DNA of 38,588 bases. It comes from a virus. Both the position numbers and the translations under genes were made by a program. Shown in pieces: positions 13,544 through 23,396 of the stretch. The DNA lies in IMG/VR virus record IMGVR_UViG_3300018916_000004, positions 1 to 38,588 of that record. One strand, written 5' to 3'. Within the stretch, counting starts at the first letter, position 1. The number at the start of each line of letters is the position of its first letter. The notes below the pieces were generated by a model. That model saw only the letters and a program-made list of their open reading frames with translations. It was not told the origin of the DNA and searched no databases.

Positions 13544-14419
13544 TCATGCGGCCGATGCTTCAGGATCCTGCTGCTCTGCCTCGTTAGCCTGTTGGGCTCG
13601 GTTGGCCACATATTCCGCTCGGAAGCGGCGGTACTCCTCCTCGCTTACTTCCTCGGCATATGTGCTATCCTCCGACAGCACCACCGAGCGAAGCAAGGCC
13701 AGGCGCTTGCGGTCGAGCAAGGTTTCCGCTGCTAGCTGTGCCTTCACATCGGCTTGCGGTTCCTCTGGATGACGGCCGTAGTAGGCAATGCCGTACTCCA
13801 GCTCCGCATCGGAAAGCTGTTCCAGGTAGCGGCGCACCTCCTGCTCATTGGCAAAGCGGGTTGTCGTCTTCTCGGCTTGCTTGTGCTGTTTGGCTTCGAG
13901 TTGCGCGGCATCGGCTAGTAGTGCGTCGCGGACCTCGGCGTAGGCCAAGCACCACGAATGCACCGTGGGTGGATCTATCCGGTCGTATGCCTTGCCCCAC
14001 CGACCGGCGATGGCTTCGCGGCACAGGTACACGAACTCGTCTATCTTCCAATGCCAATACCGCTCCAGTAGGTCATTGGCCAGCAAGGCTACCTGCACCT
14101 CAGTCAGGTTGCGCACGACGTTGAACTGTGAGGCTGTGAAGGTGATGAGGTTGCCCAGGGCCTCCGCCGTGTCGCCAGGTGCCACGGCGGCTAGGGCTGA
14201 CAGCTGCGGGCTTTGCAGGGCCTTGGCTGGTGTCAGGCCCGTTTGCCGGTCGATGATGGCCAGGGCGAGACTTTCAGTTCCTCTCTCGGCGCTCAGCAAG
14301 GGAGCGAGCGAGTTGCCCAGCATTGCCGGTAGGTTTCTGGCCTGGTGTAGGGCGGGATGTAATTGCAGCGTTGCCATGAGTCGGTTGCTGATTTGGGTCT
14401 GAGATTTGGAGACGGCCAT
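13544..14419 (-). CDS. Putative replication accessory / helicase-loader-like protein, 291 aa
   Basis: Two starts are possible: 14419 (MAVSKSQTQISNR) or 14377 (MATLQLHPAL). Both overlap the initiator gene, by about 146 or 104 bases in another frame. The protein has QFNVVRNLTEVQVALLANDLLERYWHWKIDEFVYLCREAIAGRWGKAYDRIDPPTVHSWCLAY at about residues 100-165, a block I associate with Bacteroidota phage and mobile-element proteins of unknown function, then a charged coiled-coil C-terminus. Being directly downstream of an origin-bearing initiator, in the place lambda keeps P after O, it is a helicase-loader candidate by position only. Confidence 0.55.
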   Translation of the reverse strand: MAVSKSQTQISNRLMATLQLHPALHQARNLPAMLGNSLAPLLSAERGTESLALAIIDRQTGLTPAKALQSPQLSALAAVAPGDTAEALGNLITFTASQFNVVRNLTEVQVALLANDLLERYWHWKIDEFVYLCREAIAGRWGKAYDRIDPPTVHSWCLAYAEVRDALLADAAQLEAKQHKQAEKTTTRFANEQEVRRYLEQLSDAELEYGIAYYGRHPEEPQADVKAQLAAETLLDRKRLALLRSVVLSEDSTYAEEVSEEEYRRFRAEYVANRAQQANEAEQQDPEASAA

Positions 14420-15362
14420 TGCTGGCGTCGTTATGCAGAAAGCGGTTGATGTAGGCTTGCCAGCCTTCCGGGGTGCGCTCGTCGAGGCTGGCCGTTTTCG
14501 TGGTGATTTGGGCCAGGTAGTAGGGCGCAAAGGCCGACGTGTAGCCGAGTCGGATCAGCAGCGCGGCAAAAGCCTCGAGTTCGGCGTAGGTGCTGCGGGC
14601 AAACGAGACGAAGTGCAGCGGGTCAGCGTGGCCGCCCCCCGCCCCCTGAGTGTGCGAAGCCGGGCGTTGGGCTTTTAGGCTGGCCCGAAGTTGGTCCCGC
14701 TGGTGGGTCATCTCTTCGAGCGAGGATTTTAGGATTGTAATTTCCTTTTGAGCCTCGGCTAGCTCAGCTCGTGCGCTTGCTAGCAAGCATTCATTGGTCG
14801 TATACTGGTCGTTATTGGTCGTTTCCTTATATACACTACCCTGTTTGTCTATAGACATGACCACGGATGTCTGTAGACACGACCCTGATTGTCTATAGAC
14901 AGCGCCCTGATTGTCTATAGACAGACCTTCTTTTGTAGGCAAAATGTCTATAGACATTTTGCACTCCTTTAAGATTTCGAGGTCGGCGTTGAGCTTTTCA
15001 ACGGCGGCAAATTGTTCGGCTTCGCTGCCCGTGTAGCAGAAGCGCAACGATAAGGCTGGCTGTATGCGGCGGAGCTTGGTAGCACCTGTAGACACAACTA
15101 AGTCCAGCCGTTGCAACTCAGACAGGGCGCGAGTAATGGTGCGCACGGTACCGCCGATCCTTTCGCTCAAGTAGTCATTGCTGCCCGTGAAAGCTTTCTG
15201 CTTTCCGTTTTCGGCCAGCTCGACAACCTCAATCAACACGGCGCGCAACGTTCGGTTGAGCGAGGTGAGGCGGTTGATATTTTGGCGAATGGGAAGCATT
15301 TTCAGTAGGGTTGGGGAGAAGCCGCCGGTTTCGGTGTGTAGGAAGCGGGCGGGAGTGCTCAT
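14274..15362 (-). CDS. Replication initiator-like protein with winged HTH, 362 aa
   Basis: Residues about 36-108 (NRTLRAVLIEVVELAENG..., TGSNDYLSERIGGTVRTITRALSELQRLDLV) form a winged helix-turn-helix like those of phage replication initiators and replisome organisers. Then comes a linker encoded by the iteron array, a coiled coil (LLASARAELAEAQKEITILKSSLEEM) and a C-terminal helical domain (ELEAFAALLIRLGYTSAFAPYYLAQITTK). The iteron-containing linker is the layout of lambda O, where the origin lies within the initiator gene. It overlaps the preceding gene by 4 bases. The DNA-binding role is well supported; the initiator role is inferred from the iterons. Confidence 0.7.
   Translation of the reverse strand: MSTPARFLHTETGGFSPTLLKMLPIRQNINRLTSLNRTLRAVLIEVVELAENGKQKAFTGSNDYLSERIGGTVRTITRALSELQRLDLVVSTGATKLRRIQPALSLRFCYTGSEAEQFAAVEKLNADLEILKECKMSIDILPTKEGLSIDNQGAVYRQSGSCLQTSVVMSIDKQGSVYKETTNNDQYTTNECLLASARAELAEAQKEITILKSSLEEMTHQRDQLRASLKAQRPASHTQGAGGGHADPLHFVSFARSTYAELEAFAALLIRLGYTSAFAPYYLAQITTKTASLDERTPEGWQAYINRFLHNDASNGRLQISDPNQQPTHGNAAITSRPTPGQKPTGNAGQLARSLAERRERN
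14795..14962. other. Candidate replication origin: five 22-bp-phased palindromic iterons plus TGGTCGT repeats
   Basis: TGTCTATAGACA occurs at 14846-14857, 14890-14901, 14912-14923 and 14945-14956, with a one-base variant (TGTCTGTAGACA) at 14868-14879. Start-to-start distances are 22, 22, 22 and 33 bp, i.e. whole helical turns of 11 bp. The last copy sits at the centre of a perfect 24-bp palindrome (14939-14962). Beside the array TGGTCGT occurs three times (14795, 14806, 14816) with 10-11 bp spacing, next to an AT-rich stretch (TTCCTTATATACA, 14823-14835) that could melt. The whole lies inside the initiator gene. Confidence 0.75.
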
Positions 15363-15634: not shown

Positions 15635-16848
15635 GATTTCATGAAGTCTAGTAGGGGCATTGTGGAGCCATCGGCGTACACCACATCATGCGCCACGTCG
15701 GCAGTAGGCTCGTTGCCGGTCCATTTATCCGGCCACGTGTTGGCCGCTATCAGCTCGTGAATGCGGGCTACTTCCTCACTATTGAGGATATCTACCCGCG
15801 GCCGGCCCTGCTCATCAGCAGCAGCATTTACTTCTGCCTGGATAGCGAGCACCGTTGCTAGTCCTGCTAGCCGGGCTTCCATCGTAAGCGGTCCGAGGCG
15901 CTGCTGCTTGCGGGCCAGCTTGCCATCAGCATTGCGTTCACCAGCTGGTTGCCGTTTCCGGCCAGCCAAGTTGTTGCGCAGGTGTTCGAACATGGGCCGC
16001 AACCGAAGGAGCGGGCGGAGGTAGGACCAATTGGGGCGAGCTACCAGATTTTCCAGGGCCACATCCTTACTGGCCACCGGGCAACCCATGCAGCCCGTGC
16101 GGGCATTCTTCTCTTCCGCCTCCTCTCCGCCGTAAGCTTCCGCTACCATCTTCGTACTCCAGTCGCCAAACTCGGCACGTGGGGCCCAATTGCGCAGCCA
16201 CTCCCACACGTGGCACACGCGCCAGTGCAGCAACGGGGCCAGCGTATCACACAGAGCAGCGGGTAGCGTTTCCTGGTACCAGCCTTGACCACACTCGGCA
16301 CCGTCTTTACCACAGCTCATCACGATGCGCTGATCCCGAACGGCGGACTCGCCTTGCCGAACCCCGGTAACCATCAGCACCTTTTCGCCCTTCTCCCCAA
16401 CTAGCCGGCGTAGCTCAGCCTCCATTGGTTCGATTTTAATTAAGCCGGTGCACCAGCGGAAGCCAGCACCAGAAGGAGGTACACCCCGGCCGAACATGTA
16501 GACGAAAAACCGCTCGTCTAGTGGGCTCATCACGACGCGCACATCAATACCACGGGCGCGCAGGTCGTCCATAATATCATACGCGGCTGCCATTAGCGGT
16601 ACCAGCTCCAGCCGCGTATCGGCAAAAAGCACGGTCAGGCTTTCGGGCCGCTGCACTTTGCCGGACTCAATTAGCCAGACAAGTAGCGTAAGCGTTGCCG
16701 TGCTATCCTTGCCACCGCTCCAGGCTACAGCCCAATGCTTGTGCGTTGGGCCGTAGGCGTTCAGGCTACGGGCGGTTAGCTCGATGCTGTCATTCATTTG
16801 CAGCCGGCGAGTACCTTCGAAGAGGTTGGTCTGAATGAGCTTGCTCAT
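15631..16848 (-). CDS. DndC / PAPS-reductase-like PP-loop ATPase, 405 aa
   Basis: Residues 44-50 are the PP-loop SGGKDST, which binds ATP and activates substrates by adenylation in the adenine nucleotide alpha-hydrolase superfamily. TGVRQGES (161-168) and RWCTGLIKIEP (131-141) match the GVR-xES and C-T-LKI blocks typical of DndC, the sulfur-activating subunit of DNA phosphorothioation. RTGCMGCP (250-257) gives a CxxC pair that with Cys133 could hold an iron-sulfur cluster. No DndB, DndD or DndE is present. It overlaps the helicase-methyltransferase by 4 bases, so the two are probably made together. A DNA-modification role is inferred. Confidence 0.85.
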   Translation of the reverse strand: MSKLIQTNLFEGTRRLQMNDSIELTARSLNAYGPTHKHWAVAWSGGKDSTATLTLLVWLIESGKVQRPESLTVLFADTRLELVPLMAAAYDIMDDLRARGIDVRVVMSPLDERFFVYMFGRGVPPSGAGFRWCTGLIKIEPMEAELRRLVGEKGEKVLMVTGVRQGESAVRDQRIVMSCGKDGAECGQGWYQETLPAALCDTLAPLLHWRVCHVWEWLRNWAPRAEFGDWSTKMVAEAYGGEEAEEKNARTGCMGCPVASKDVALENLVARPNWSYLRPLLRLRPMFEHLRNNLAGRKRQPAGERNADGKLARKQQRLGPLTMEARLAGLATVLAIQAEVNAAADEQGRPRVDILNSEEVARIHELIAANTWPDKWTGNEPTADVAHDVVYADGSTMPLLDFMKS

Positions 16849-19388
16849 GCTGCTACCTCCTTTTCCTGCTCGAGTAAATCGAACAACGTGGGCACCGTCA
16901 CCTTGTATTCAGCTTCGCGGCAGTAGGCAACACCCGACTTCCAATAGTCTGCGTTCAGCTCCACCCCGTAGCCGCGGCGGCCTAGTGCCACCGCCCGATA
17001 AGGCACCGTCATCAGGCCCCCAAACGGATCGAGTACCACTTCGCCCGGATTGCTCCAGCGCTCAATTACGCGGTCCACGATATCGAACGGCAGCGGGCAA
17101 ATGTGATTCTGCACATTGCGTTTGGCTTGCTCACCGTTGAGTGTGCGCATATACACCACATCCGTCCACACATCCTCGTGCGGTGACTGTGGCGCCAGCA
17201 TCATAAAAGAGGAGGGCAGGCGCTTGGCGTGCTCGAGTCCTTCCCCAATGCGCACGTGCTCGGAGTAATTGTAGGGCGCAAACAGGTTGCGCGCCTTCCA
17301 CCACTGGCCAATGCGGTCCATGCTGCGGCTCTGCAACTCGGTTGGCGTCAGCAGCCGGTCCCCACTGGAGCGCCACAGCGCGTGAGCATCCACCTGCCAG
17401 CGAGCGAGCGAGTACTGCGCCTTGTCCTTTACAACCGGCGTATCCGCGTAGCCATTCTCCTGCGAGCTAGGCAGCTTGCGGAACAACAAGATGTATTCGG
17501 GCAAGCCTACGCCCATTTTGCTACCATCCTTACACATCTCCGTGTAGCCGAGGCGGTACGTCTGGTTGTTTTCACGAACCACATCCGTTAGCACCGTAAT
17601 GCGGCCCATCAGGCGGAAGCCATGCTTGCGGAAGGCGGCGCTGGTTTGATCACTGAACGGGTCGAGGGCTATAAAGCCATCGCCGGTAACGGATCCGTAG
17701 CGTACCCGGTCCTTTACATGGATAGCAGCAATGCGGCCCGGCTTGAGCACACGCAACAGCTCCGGTACCAAGAAGTCCATTTGCTGGAAAAACTTCTCGT
17801 TATCCTCGTTGTGGCCGAAGTCGTTGTAGCTGGCGCTGTACTCGTAGTGGTTGCCGAAGGGAATGCTCGTGTGAATCAGGTCCACCGAGTTGTCGGCTAG
17901 GTGCGACATCTCGGCTACGCAGTCGTTGTGCACGGCCGTGAAGAGATTGCCCCGCACCTCTTTCCGTTCCACGCCCATCGTGCGGGTAAGCCGGTCTTTG
18001 GCGGCGGCGTGGGAGAGGCCGTACGTTTTGATGATGGACCGCATGTTTTCCATCAGTTCCTCATGACGCTGCCACTTGGCCTCCAATTCCTTGCGGATCG
18101 GTTCTTCGGCCGGCGTATAGAGGATATGCACCTGCACGGGGTGCTGCTGCTGAAAGCGGTGCGTGCGGTGCACGGCCTGAATGAAGTCCTCGAAACGGTA
18201 GTCGATACCGAGGAAAAGATTCAGGTGGCAGTGCCGCTGGAAGTTGCAGCCGCTACCTGCTATCTCCGGCTTGGTAGCCAGGTATTGGTATTCACCGCGA
18301 CTGAAACCTAGTATCAGATCCTCCCGATCGTCTAGGTCCTGCGAGCCATACACCGAGTTAAAGCCGCCTGGAGCTTCGTTGAAAGCAGCTTCCAGCGCGC
18401 GCCGCTCATCCTCCAAGTGATGCCAGATGATCCAGTGATCATGGTACCCCTCAGGCGTTAGAACAAGCTGCAGGGCCTTATCTACCCGAGCCGAGATGCT
18501 GCGTTTCTTCTCCCGTGCCGCTTCTGGCAGGTTGCCACCGGCGACGTGGAATACCTCATGCTGGCCTGAACGACGGTCTACCCGTACGGCCGTCTCGGTA
18601 TCGGCAACAAGGTGCCAGTTTACTTGGAGCGCTGGCAGGTCGTAGCCCTCATCTGAATACCCAAGGTCGGAGGGGCGCGTCAGGAACAGCGCCCACGAGC
18701 TAACCCACAACCAATAATCCGCCTCGTGTTGCGGATGCAGCGTTAGGTTGCCCGCCTTCTGCGAGTCCCGCCGAAACCAACGGGTAAGCGCCTGGCCAGC
18801 ATCCATCACACCGAGGAAGGCGGCGTAGTGATTGAGTTCGGTATAGCGGTTGGGGGAAGGCGTTGCCGTGCACACATACCGGAAGGGCACTTTAGCCAGC
18901 AACCGCGCAAACTGCTGGTGTGTCTCGCTGCCTACGCTCCGCAGGACGGATCCTTCGTCGAGCGTGACAGCGGCCAGGCCTGCGAGGAACGCCTCGCTAA
19001 AGTGACCATCTCGCACCCGCTCGTAATTGGTGATGAGGAAGGGCGTACCTGCTGCGGTGGCTTCGGCATCGTTGCGTACGTACTGAATGCGTACGCCTAG
19101 CCGGGGGCCATCTTCTTCGGTGAACTGGTGCTTTACGCCAAGCGGGCATACGATGAGCACCATGCCGCCTAGGAACTCCTGAATGAGGCGCAGCAACTCG
19201 ATCTGGGTATGTGTCTTGCCGAGGCCGAAGCTGGAGCCAATGAGGCCGCGGCCTTTGCGCAGGGCCCAAACAATAGTATCGACCTGGTGCGGCAGGCTGG
19301 AAGGGTGAATGTGGGCAGGGTTTACCTCGAAGCCACAGTCTTCTGCCAACTTGATTTTGGAGCCAAGGAAGTCCGTATAGTTATTCAC
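16845..19388 (-). CDS. SF2 helicase - beta-class DNA methyltransferase fusion, 847 aa
   Basis: The N-terminal half is an SF2/SNF2-like motor: Walker A GSSFGLGKTHT (51-61), an atypical motif II LDEGS (143-147 in place of DEAH), motif III CTATPSP (173-179) and motif VI QAVHRTHRF (404-412). The C-terminal half is an amino-methyltransferase in the beta order: motif IV TSIPF (507-511) before motif I DPFGG (787-791), with YGVELN at 807-812. The Ile replaces the first Pro of the usual (D/S)PP(Y/F). Such fusions occur in phages and may translocate along and methylate phage DNA. It overlaps the upstream gene by 8 bases and the DndC-like gene by 4. Confidence 0.88.
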   Translation of the reverse strand: MNNYTDFLGSKIKLAEDCGFEVNPAHIHPSSLPHQVDTIVWALRKGRGLIGSSFGLGKTHTQIELLRLIQEFLGGMVLIVCPLGVKHQFTEEDGPRLGVRIQYVRNDAEATAAGTPFLITNYERVRDGHFSEAFLAGLAAVTLDEGSVLRSVGSETHQQFARLLAKVPFRYVCTATPSPNRYTELNHYAAFLGVMDAGQALTRWFRRDSQKAGNLTLHPQHEADYWLWVSSWALFLTRPSDLGYSDEGYDLPALQVNWHLVADTETAVRVDRRSGQHEVFHVAGGNLPEAAREKKRSISARVDKALQLVLTPEGYHDHWIIWHHLEDERRALEAAFNEAPGGFNSVYGSQDLDDREDLILGFSRGEYQYLATKPEIAGSGCNFQRHCHLNLFLGIDYRFEDFIQAVHRTHRFQQQHPVQVHILYTPAEEPIRKELEAKWQRHEELMENMRSIIKTYGLSHAAAKDRLTRTMGVERKEVRGNLFTAVHNDCVAEMSHLADNSVDLIHTSIPFGNHYEYSASYNDFGHNEDNEKFFQQMDFLVPELLRVLKPGRIAAIHVKDRVRYGSVTGDGFIALDPFSDQTSAAFRKHGFRLMGRITVLTDVVRENNQTYRLGYTEMCKDGSKMGVGLPEYILLFRKLPSSQENGYADTPVVKDKAQYSLARWQVDAHALWRSSGDRLLTPTELQSRSMDRIGQWWKARNLFAPYNYSEHVRIGEGLEHAKRLPSSFMMLAPQSPHEDVWTDVVYMRTLNGEQAKRNVQNHICPLPFDIVDRVIERWSNPGEVVLDPFGGLMTVPYRAVALGRRGYGVELNADYWKSGVAYCREAEYKVTVPTLFDLLEQEKEVAA

Positions 19389-22581: not shown

Positions 22582-22602
22582 AACAGGTGAGGGGTTAGAG
22601 GA

Positions 22603-22676
22603 TGACACAAACATAGTACACAATTTGACACGGTGCAACATTATTTGACACAAAATTTGTCAAGCTGTGTCAAATT
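22603..22676. promoter_or_regulatory. Repressor operators between repressor gene and early genes
   Basis: Copies of a (T)TTGACACA word occur here: TGACACAA at 22603-22610, TTTGACAC at 22624-22631 and 22644-22651, and the reverse GTGTCAAA at 22667-22674, with TTTGTCAA at 22656-22663. AATTTGACAC (22622-22631) and GTGTCAAATT (22667-22676) form a perfect 10-bp inverted repeat. The cluster fills the 130-bp divergent intergenic region, as expected for a CI/LexA-type switch. Confidence 0.75.
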
Positions 22677-22709
22677 GTAGTGTTTTGTGAAAAACATATA
22701 CTACTACTA

Positions 22710-23396
22710 ATGAAAACAGACCAGGCAACACGCCTTGCGGAATTGCGGCGGCAGTCCGGCCTATCAGTTCGAGAGATAGAAAAGTGGATGAAAGATTCTG
22801 GTGAGACCGTAGGCGTTACATATTCTCAATTGGCCAAATACCACCGAGACCCAACCATCAAAATCAAGATCAGTGTTCTGCGCAAACTGGCAGAACTCTA
22901 CAACACCACTCCTGAATACATAGAGACCGGAGATAGGACCGGCAAAGAATCATTTAACAATATGCCTACCCGCTACATTACCGTTGATCCGCAAGGCAAG
23001 CAGCAAATCTTGTTGGTGCCTCAAAAAGCTGAAGCTGGTTACCGAAAACACTTCTCTGAGCAAGACTATTTAGGCAAGCTTCCTACTTACTCACTACCTG
23101 GATTTGAACACGGCACCTTTCGCATGTTTGAGGTAGCGGGTACTAGTATGACACCCGACTTTCAGCCAGGTGATATAGTGATATGTGAGCATGTGGAGCG
23201 GCCAGATGAAATAGTAGATGGCACCGTGTATGTCATTGTTACTACTGAAGGTATTTGCCTCAAGCGCGTTACCAATCTGGTTGATAAGAAGGGCTATCTA
23301 GTTATTGAATCCGATAATTCGGAATTCAAACCAGATATTATTCAGCCGAACGAAGTGCTAGAAATGTGGTCCTACCGCAAGAAGCTCACCACATAG
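22710..23396 (+). CDS. LexA/CI-like repressor with S24 peptidase domain, 228 aa
   Basis: Lysogeny repressor. The start at 22710 (MKTDQATRLAELRRQ) is chosen; an upstream in-frame ATG at 22680 lies in the operator region. Residues about 5-70 form an HTH (LAELRRQSGLSVREIEKWMKDS...YSQLAKYHRD). The C-terminal S24 domain has VAGTSMTPDFQPGD with nucleophile Ser146 and general-base Lys185 in ICLKRVTNL. A KAEAGY stretch gives an Ala109-Gly110 bond in the place where LexA/CI proteins self-cleave, so SOS-triggered induction is likely. It precedes the integrase by 19 bases and is lower in GC than the early genes. Confidence 0.9.
   Translation: MKTDQATRLAELRRQSGLSVREIEKWMKDSGETVGVTYSQLAKYHRDPTIKIKISVLRKLAELYNTTPEYIETGDRTGKESFNNMPTRYITVDPQGKQQILLVPQKAEAGYRKHFSEQDYLGKLPTYSLPGFEHGTFRMFEVAGTSMTPDFQPGDIVICEHVERPDEIVDGTVYVIVTTEGICLKRVTNLVDKKGYLVIESDNSEFKPDIIQPNEVLEMWSYRKKLTT

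Follow-up and report, generated by a model that had tools for sequence, protein, structure and literature searches.

Five 12-letter palindromes within an open reading frame (ORF) of 362 amino acids appear to serve as iterons for a theta-type origin of replication that is embedded in its own initiator's gene, a reading to which we give a probability of roughly 0.85. The window analyzed here is an entire virus record (38,588 bases) with genes for an integrase, a CI-like repressor, a terminase, and a portal, a gene set that makes it probably a temperate phage. Because its relatives were found in Hymenobacter genomes, the likely host is Hymenobacter or a close relative (Bacteroidota). In the mechanism that we propose, each palindrome would be bound by two N-terminal winged-helix domains, strain from the loaded array would melt an adjacent AT-richer stretch with CGACCA repeats, and the C-terminal domain would recruit the host DnaB helicase via the protein of the next gene (13544-14377). 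We infer these steps (binding, stoichiometry, unwinding, and helicase loading) from sequence.

The array (14846-14956) was checked against the sequence-only reading from which this work started, which had described five phased palindromes in a probable initiator gene. Exact copies of TGTCTATAGACA start at 14846, 14890, 14912, and 14945 and a one-mismatch copy (TGTCTGTAGACA) starts at 14868, with start-to-start spacings of 22, 22, 22, and 33 bp; all five sites are inside the minus-strand ORF at 14274-15362. In gene order, the unstranded sites are iteron 1 (14945-14956; exact; read MSID), iteron 2 (14912-14923; exact; LSID), iteron 3 (14890-14901; exact; VYR), iteron 4 (14868-14879; the variant, TGTCTACAGACA on the coding strand; CLQT), and iteron 5 (14846-14857; exact; MSID). 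The codon frames were as claimed (SID three times, VYR once, and CLQ once), and iteron 1 is the center of a 24-bp perfect palindrome (14939-14962), by position the extended last copy of the earlier description. No further site with 0 to 2 mismatches occurs elsewhere in the 38,588-bp record, where sites at up to 3 mismatches are at about background (10 versus 7.7 expected). Every site with 0 or 1 mismatch sits within one 111-bp stretch, a clustering beyond chance.

A protein search returned no close protein-level relatives of the 362-aa ORF in viral contigs, phages, or plasmids; relatives were recovered instead by a DNA pattern, two adjacent palindromes. Those with the window's palindrome (class A) were a phage contig (L007/L093) and prophages of Hymenobacter sp. 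CCM 8763 (L014/L096, which also exists as virus record L011/L095), HSC-4F20 (L041/L094), and YC55 (L077/L097), their proteins being 49 to 53% identical to that of the window. Five to six palindrome copies occupy the same linker in L093, L096 (= L095), L094, and L097, one of the five in L094 being a single-base variant. Among the class A relatives compared, the 24-bp extension is common only to L093, the nearest. Exact TGTCTATAGACA was confined to the array in three Hymenobacter genomes and three virus records (5, 4, and 6 copies in G001 to G003; 4, 5, and 5 in the window, G004, and G005). Homologues were found in 15 of 120 genomes of the genus Hymenobacter, and a profile search matched 23 of 204 genomes of the family. 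Most genome matches of the two-palindrome pattern were Treponema/Spirochaetaceae metagenome-assembled genome (MAG) arrays with a 42-bp period, which are unrelated and were set aside; L012, L019, L033, L058, and other such MAG loci carry arrays of TGTCTNNAGACA pairs, many of them 42-bp periodic.

The ORF (14274-15362, minus strand) is a probable replication initiator gene on the strength of Pfam and PHROG matches and an AF2 model built from 17 homologues. The model consists of a confident winged helix (residues ∼20 to 136; pLDDT mostly 86 to 94), a disordered linker (136 to 188), a coiled coil (186 to 232), and a confident helical C-terminal domain (250 to 316), and the iterons encode residues 136 to 172, within the least-structured part. 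From this model, winged-helix matches in the PDB, and the domain identity comparisons given below, the N-terminal winged helix (codons at 14955-15305, minus strand) would be the iteron-binding domain, and the coiled coil with the C-terminal domain (14415-14807, minus strand) would be the partner-binding part.

The window protein matched Pfam HTH_36 (PF13730) at 7e-6 (26.1 bits; curated cut-off, 25), as did 15 of the 17 homologues at E values of up to 0.1. Its match to the O-like family PHROG 678 was weak (0.0027), with 13 of the 17 homologues matching (best, 2e-11); each of the O-like initiation families PHROG 270, 678, and 391 was matched by 12 to 14 of the 17, and the single PHROG matches that were inspected begin in the winged helix. 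Phage_rep_O (PF04492) was absent from the Pfam matches of the window protein at E values of up to 0.1 and from the 25 commonest families of the homologues, and RepA_N (PF06970) was absent from the Pfam list of the window protein and from the same 25 families. In a fold search the winged helix resembled MarR- and CRP-type domains, and no initiator stood out: PDB 4pt7 ("Structure of initiator"; Z 7.6, rmsd 5.6 over 102 residues) was tied with other winged helices. Searching solved structures by sequence yielded nothing beyond weak matches to winged helices and coiled coils.

The next gene (13544-14377, minus strand; 277 aa from ATG) is in the position of lambda P and probably starts at the ATG at 14377, overlapping the end of the initiator. 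It belongs to a family, P1, that fills the same slot in L094, L096, L098, L099, L101, and L108, and a second family, P2, fills it in L093, L097, L100, L102, and L112. Elsewhere the slot holds DnaB (L111, Pfam 3e-89; L106, 3e-25) or a DnaC-like loader (L104, 8e-11) and, from reading of translations, DnaB-like (L103, L123, and L109) or AAA+ loader-like (L110, L107, and L128) proteins; a Pfam scan of the L110 downstream protein gave no match. By position, the P1 and P2 proteins are probable helicase loaders or partners. The window P1 protein had no recognizable match in a fold search, and none of the searches run linked it to a known loader; a common origin of P1 and P2 is suggested, rather than shown, by hhalign (probability, 26%; P value, 7e-4). 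The lambda ori-like arrangement first proposed from the sequence is supported in its core, with a layout matching lambda O-P: an initiator-like winged-helix ORF with iterons in its linker, an AT-richer stretch, and a C-terminal domain is followed by a gene in the helicase/loader position.

The palindromes might instead be operators through which the 362-aa protein or the CI-like repressor (22680-23396) controls early operon transcription, for example, as a roadblock. Palindromes and winged helices are typical of transcription repressors, in-gene transcription roadblocks exist, and autoregulation could coexist with origin function. We nonetheless consider this explanation improbable, since the sites lie 400 bp into the gene, always in the linker and in 5 to 6 copies, the gene that follows in relatives is replicative (DnaB or a loader), and a simple repressor leaves the C-terminal half unexplained. 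The start region of the CI-like repressor has no iteron-like site at up to 3 mismatches and carries TTTGACACA-type repeats instead, for which reason the palindromes were rejected as CI operators. Those direct and inverted repeats (22590-22690), beside the repressor start, are possibly CI operators themselves.

Less likely still, the array could be a site for partition (centromere-like) or packaging and not an origin. Tandem palindromes near a helix-turn-helix (HTH) protein can be parS/parC-like, but there was no partition ATPase among the nearby proteins tested, the terminase gene is ∼5 kb away, and the slot in relatives holds helicase or loader genes.

The in-gene origin reading draws further on the reading frames of the repeats. 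TGTCTATAGACA has two open frames, and the third reads TGT CTA TAG, with a stop; in the sister palindrome of L111, TGACTATAGTCA, the forbidden frame begins with TGA. Across six homologues, 29 exact sites (24 of TGTCTATAGACA and 5 of TGACTATAGTCA in L111) fall 20, 9, and 0 per frame, the stop frame being empty. The sole site in the stop frame is the window copy at 14868, which reads TGT CTA CAG, with CAG replacing TAG: the single-base change in this variant is the change that removes the stop. Relatives alternate steps of 22 and 23 bp, by which the site shuttles between the two open frames and skips the stop frame, and the window makes three 22-bp steps at the cost of a variant copy. Stop-frame avoidance is expected in any ORF; what is informative is that all the frame adjustments have left the repeat and the ∼22-bp spacing intact. 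One TGTCTCTAGACA variant in L094 lies in an open frame, so stop avoidance does not account for every variant. The codons themselves are improbable under the phage's own usage, with probabilities of 0.008 for SID as TCT ATA GAC and 0.0008 for VYR as GTC TAT AGA, and the two remaining SID tripeptides in the genes examined use other codons. Differing frames, a kept repeat, and improbable codons therefore point to selection at the DNA level, and the earlier claim that conservation acts on DNA rather than protein is backed by the frame distribution of the 29 sites and by this codon choice. That the array is a protein-level linker repeat (SID/VYR motifs) is the least probable explanation of all: SID is read in three of the five window copies, and SID or VYR in the majority of copies in relatives, but the frames yield different peptides, the linker is predicted to be disordered, the codons are improbable, and the linker peptides of other classes differ (TIDK, NLDK, LAKR, and LTIV) with the tandem DNA repeat kept.

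The spacing claims fared less evenly. The 25 spacings in six homologues were 22 bp (12 times), 23 bp (5), 33 bp (3), 21 bp (2), and 15, 24, and 30 bp (once each); the rule is about two helical turns, and whole multiples of 11 are not the rule. The rigid 11-bp multiples seen in the window alone do not extend to relatives, which alternate 22 and 23 bp and also use 21, 24, 15, and 30 bp. The proposal that all sites face the same side of the helix requires a helical repeat close to 11 bp; with 10.5 bp per turn, each 22-bp step drifts by ∼34 degrees and the five sites span ∼150 degrees. The comparison of homologues that the sequence-only reading had recommended found a spacing of about two turns kept in these six homologues and did not find exact 11-bp phasing. 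Rayleigh-type phasing values were left out of the evidence because homologous spacings are not independent.

The candidate unwinding region (14788-14843, minus strand), chosen on AT content and CGACCA repeats, lies 3' of the iterons. This stretch (GTATATAAGGAAACGACCAATAACGACCAGTATACGACCAAT) has an AT content of 0.62 over 40 bp, against 0.44 for the ORF, and carries three CGACCA repeats (14816-14821, 14806-14811, and 14795-14800) that are 10 and 11 bp apart. In 17 homologues, this region (1,105 bp) contains 31 occurrences of GA[ACG]CA[AG], versus 43 in 17,177 bp from other parts of these genes, an enrichment of ∼11-fold that is descriptive, the motif having been picked after these sequences were viewed. 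CGA[ACG]CA triplets are present in classes A, C, E, and F (defined below), and CGACCA-type repeats in homologues are 8 to 12 bp apart. The CGACCA stretch resembles an origin component that does not depend on iteron class and may be where the DNA opens. AT content peaks (0.70 over 40 bp) on the other side of the array, however, around iteron 1, so that the 3' stretch is put forward as a candidate unwinding region. GC skew of the record was too noisy to locate an origin.

Homologues fall into six iteron classes, of which C to F were defined by eye and are less exact than A and B: A (TGTCTATAGACA; window, L093, L096, L094, and L097), B (TGACTATAGTCA; L111, spaced 33/22/23/22 like L093), C (AACTATAGACAA-type; L098, L099, L100, and L102), D (AACCTAGACAA-type; L101, L103, L104, L106, and L123), E (CTCTTAGCAAAACGCTAAGA-type; L110 and L128), and F (GGGGATA-type; L108). 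By-eye reading recognized no array in the linker of L107. In L130 and L132, a different N-terminal domain is joined to a related C-terminal domain, and linker repeats are apparently present too. In L108 (1492-2671), the initiator homologue is broken into two overlapping ORFs, the apparent cause being a frameshift close to where the C-terminal part begins.

Across the 17 homologues, with label shuffles that ignore phylogeny and classes partly set by eye, identity over residues 20 to 120 was 73% within an iteron class versus 47% between classes (0 of 10,000 shuffles), and identity of the C-terminal domain was 46% between proteins with the same downstream gene versus 27% (0 of 10,000 shuffles). 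The N-terminal domain showed no association with the downstream gene (p 0.15), and that of the C-terminal domain with iteron class was not clear (p 0.09; p 0.025 with the coiled coil included). In the ten members with P1 or P2 neighbors, the matched pairs gave p values of 0.0006 and 0.005 and the crossed pairs 0.97 and 0.80. The iterons adjoin the winged-helix codons and the C-terminal domain adjoins the downstream gene, and this proximity could account for some of each association, since neighboring segments can be coinherited without any functional tie. That the repeat class changes with the winged helix, and the C-terminal domain with the next gene, supports co-evolution without proving it. 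L093 and the window share 78% identity in the winged helix and 39% in the C-terminal half, and the C-terminal half of L093 is 71% identical to that of L100 (class C). Tentatively, and at somewhat less than even odds, winged helix plus iterons may form one exchangeable specificity cassette in Hymenobacter phages, swapped independently of the C-terminal domain and loader, with its border in the disordered linker. Phages could then change origin identity yet keep their helicase-loading machinery, and an origin swap would offer them a way around incompatibility, superinfection interference, or satellites that target origins.

Clear precedents for an in-gene origin exist in lambda and in pSK41/pPR9, and what makes this case interesting is its reading-frame signature together with the series of swaps found in nature. 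In lambda, iterons lie in the middle of the O gene, each is bound by a dimer, and the protein has a flexible linker; the N terminus of O has been suggested to bind DNA/ori and the C terminus P (PMC6022878, PMC3349717). Repeated palindromic sites lie midway along the initiator gene in the window as in lambda O/ori-lambda and Stx phages, where an AT-rich 3' side and a helicase-loader gene follow (PMC6022878, PMC3349717, PMC7466680); the candidate counterparts in the window are the AT-richer stretch and P1, and its inferred domain order (DNA-binding N terminus, flexible linker, and partner-binding C terminus) is that of O. The four iterons of lambda are 18 bp long with hyphenated symmetry, whereas the window has five 12-bp perfect or near-perfect palindromes. 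Its protein, unlike O, matches HTH_36 and not the Pfam O model, P1 matched no known loader in the searches described above, and the putative host is a member of the Bacteroidota. In RepA_N plasmids of the pSK41 type, the origin lies within the rep gene, encodes a dispensable linker, and is bound by the winged-helix N terminus; pPR9 differs from pSK41 in the N-terminal domain, of the phage type PF13730 (HTH_36), and in the origin region but keeps the C terminus (PMC5703833). The window shares with them a probable in-gene origin over linker codons and, with pPR9, the Pfam family of the N-terminal domain; it differs from pSK41, a RepA_N member of Firmicutes plasmids whose DnaD-like C terminus binds DnaG primase, a relation not seen here. 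By analogy, the pattern of two linked pairs is that of lambda O and pPR9. The O-like families PHROG 270, 678, and 391, which the homologues match and of which the window protein is a marginal member, say nothing of in-gene iterons.

No description of an in-gene phage origin in Bacteroidota was found in the literature searched, and the window provides an experimentally simple candidate. The natural series of classes shows a DNA-binding domain diverging in step with its site on related protein scaffolds, which opens to direct testing both the code by which HTH_36 initiators recognize DNA and the evolution of in-gene origins (frame choice and stop avoidance). A second origin element, independent of iteron class, is suggested by the presence of CGACCA repeats in several classes.

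Three further observations were made. A 101-kb viral contig (L009, 5458-6450) encodes a different O-like initiator with near-palindromes in its linker (TGTCTGTAGACA and TGTCTTCAGACA, 24 bp apart, read CLQT and CLKT). At 16845-19388, the window encodes an 847-aa protein in which an SNF2-type helicase domain is fused to a DNA methyltransferase domain of the N6/N4 type. An uninterrupted run of nine or ten A's (GAAAAAAAAATA or CAAAAAAAAATA) is missing from the window at the equivalent position, near 14747-14765, and is kept in 14 of the 17 initiator homologues (L093 [1486-2553], L096, L094, L097, L111, L098 to L102, L104, and L106 to L108) though the preceding codon varies; it lies in coiled-coil codons (∼aa 183 to 222). 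In most carriers, one-base slippage at this run would end the protein within ∼10 codons, leaving the winged helix and linker, which makes the run a candidate for programmed slippage to a short form or for an origin A-tract.
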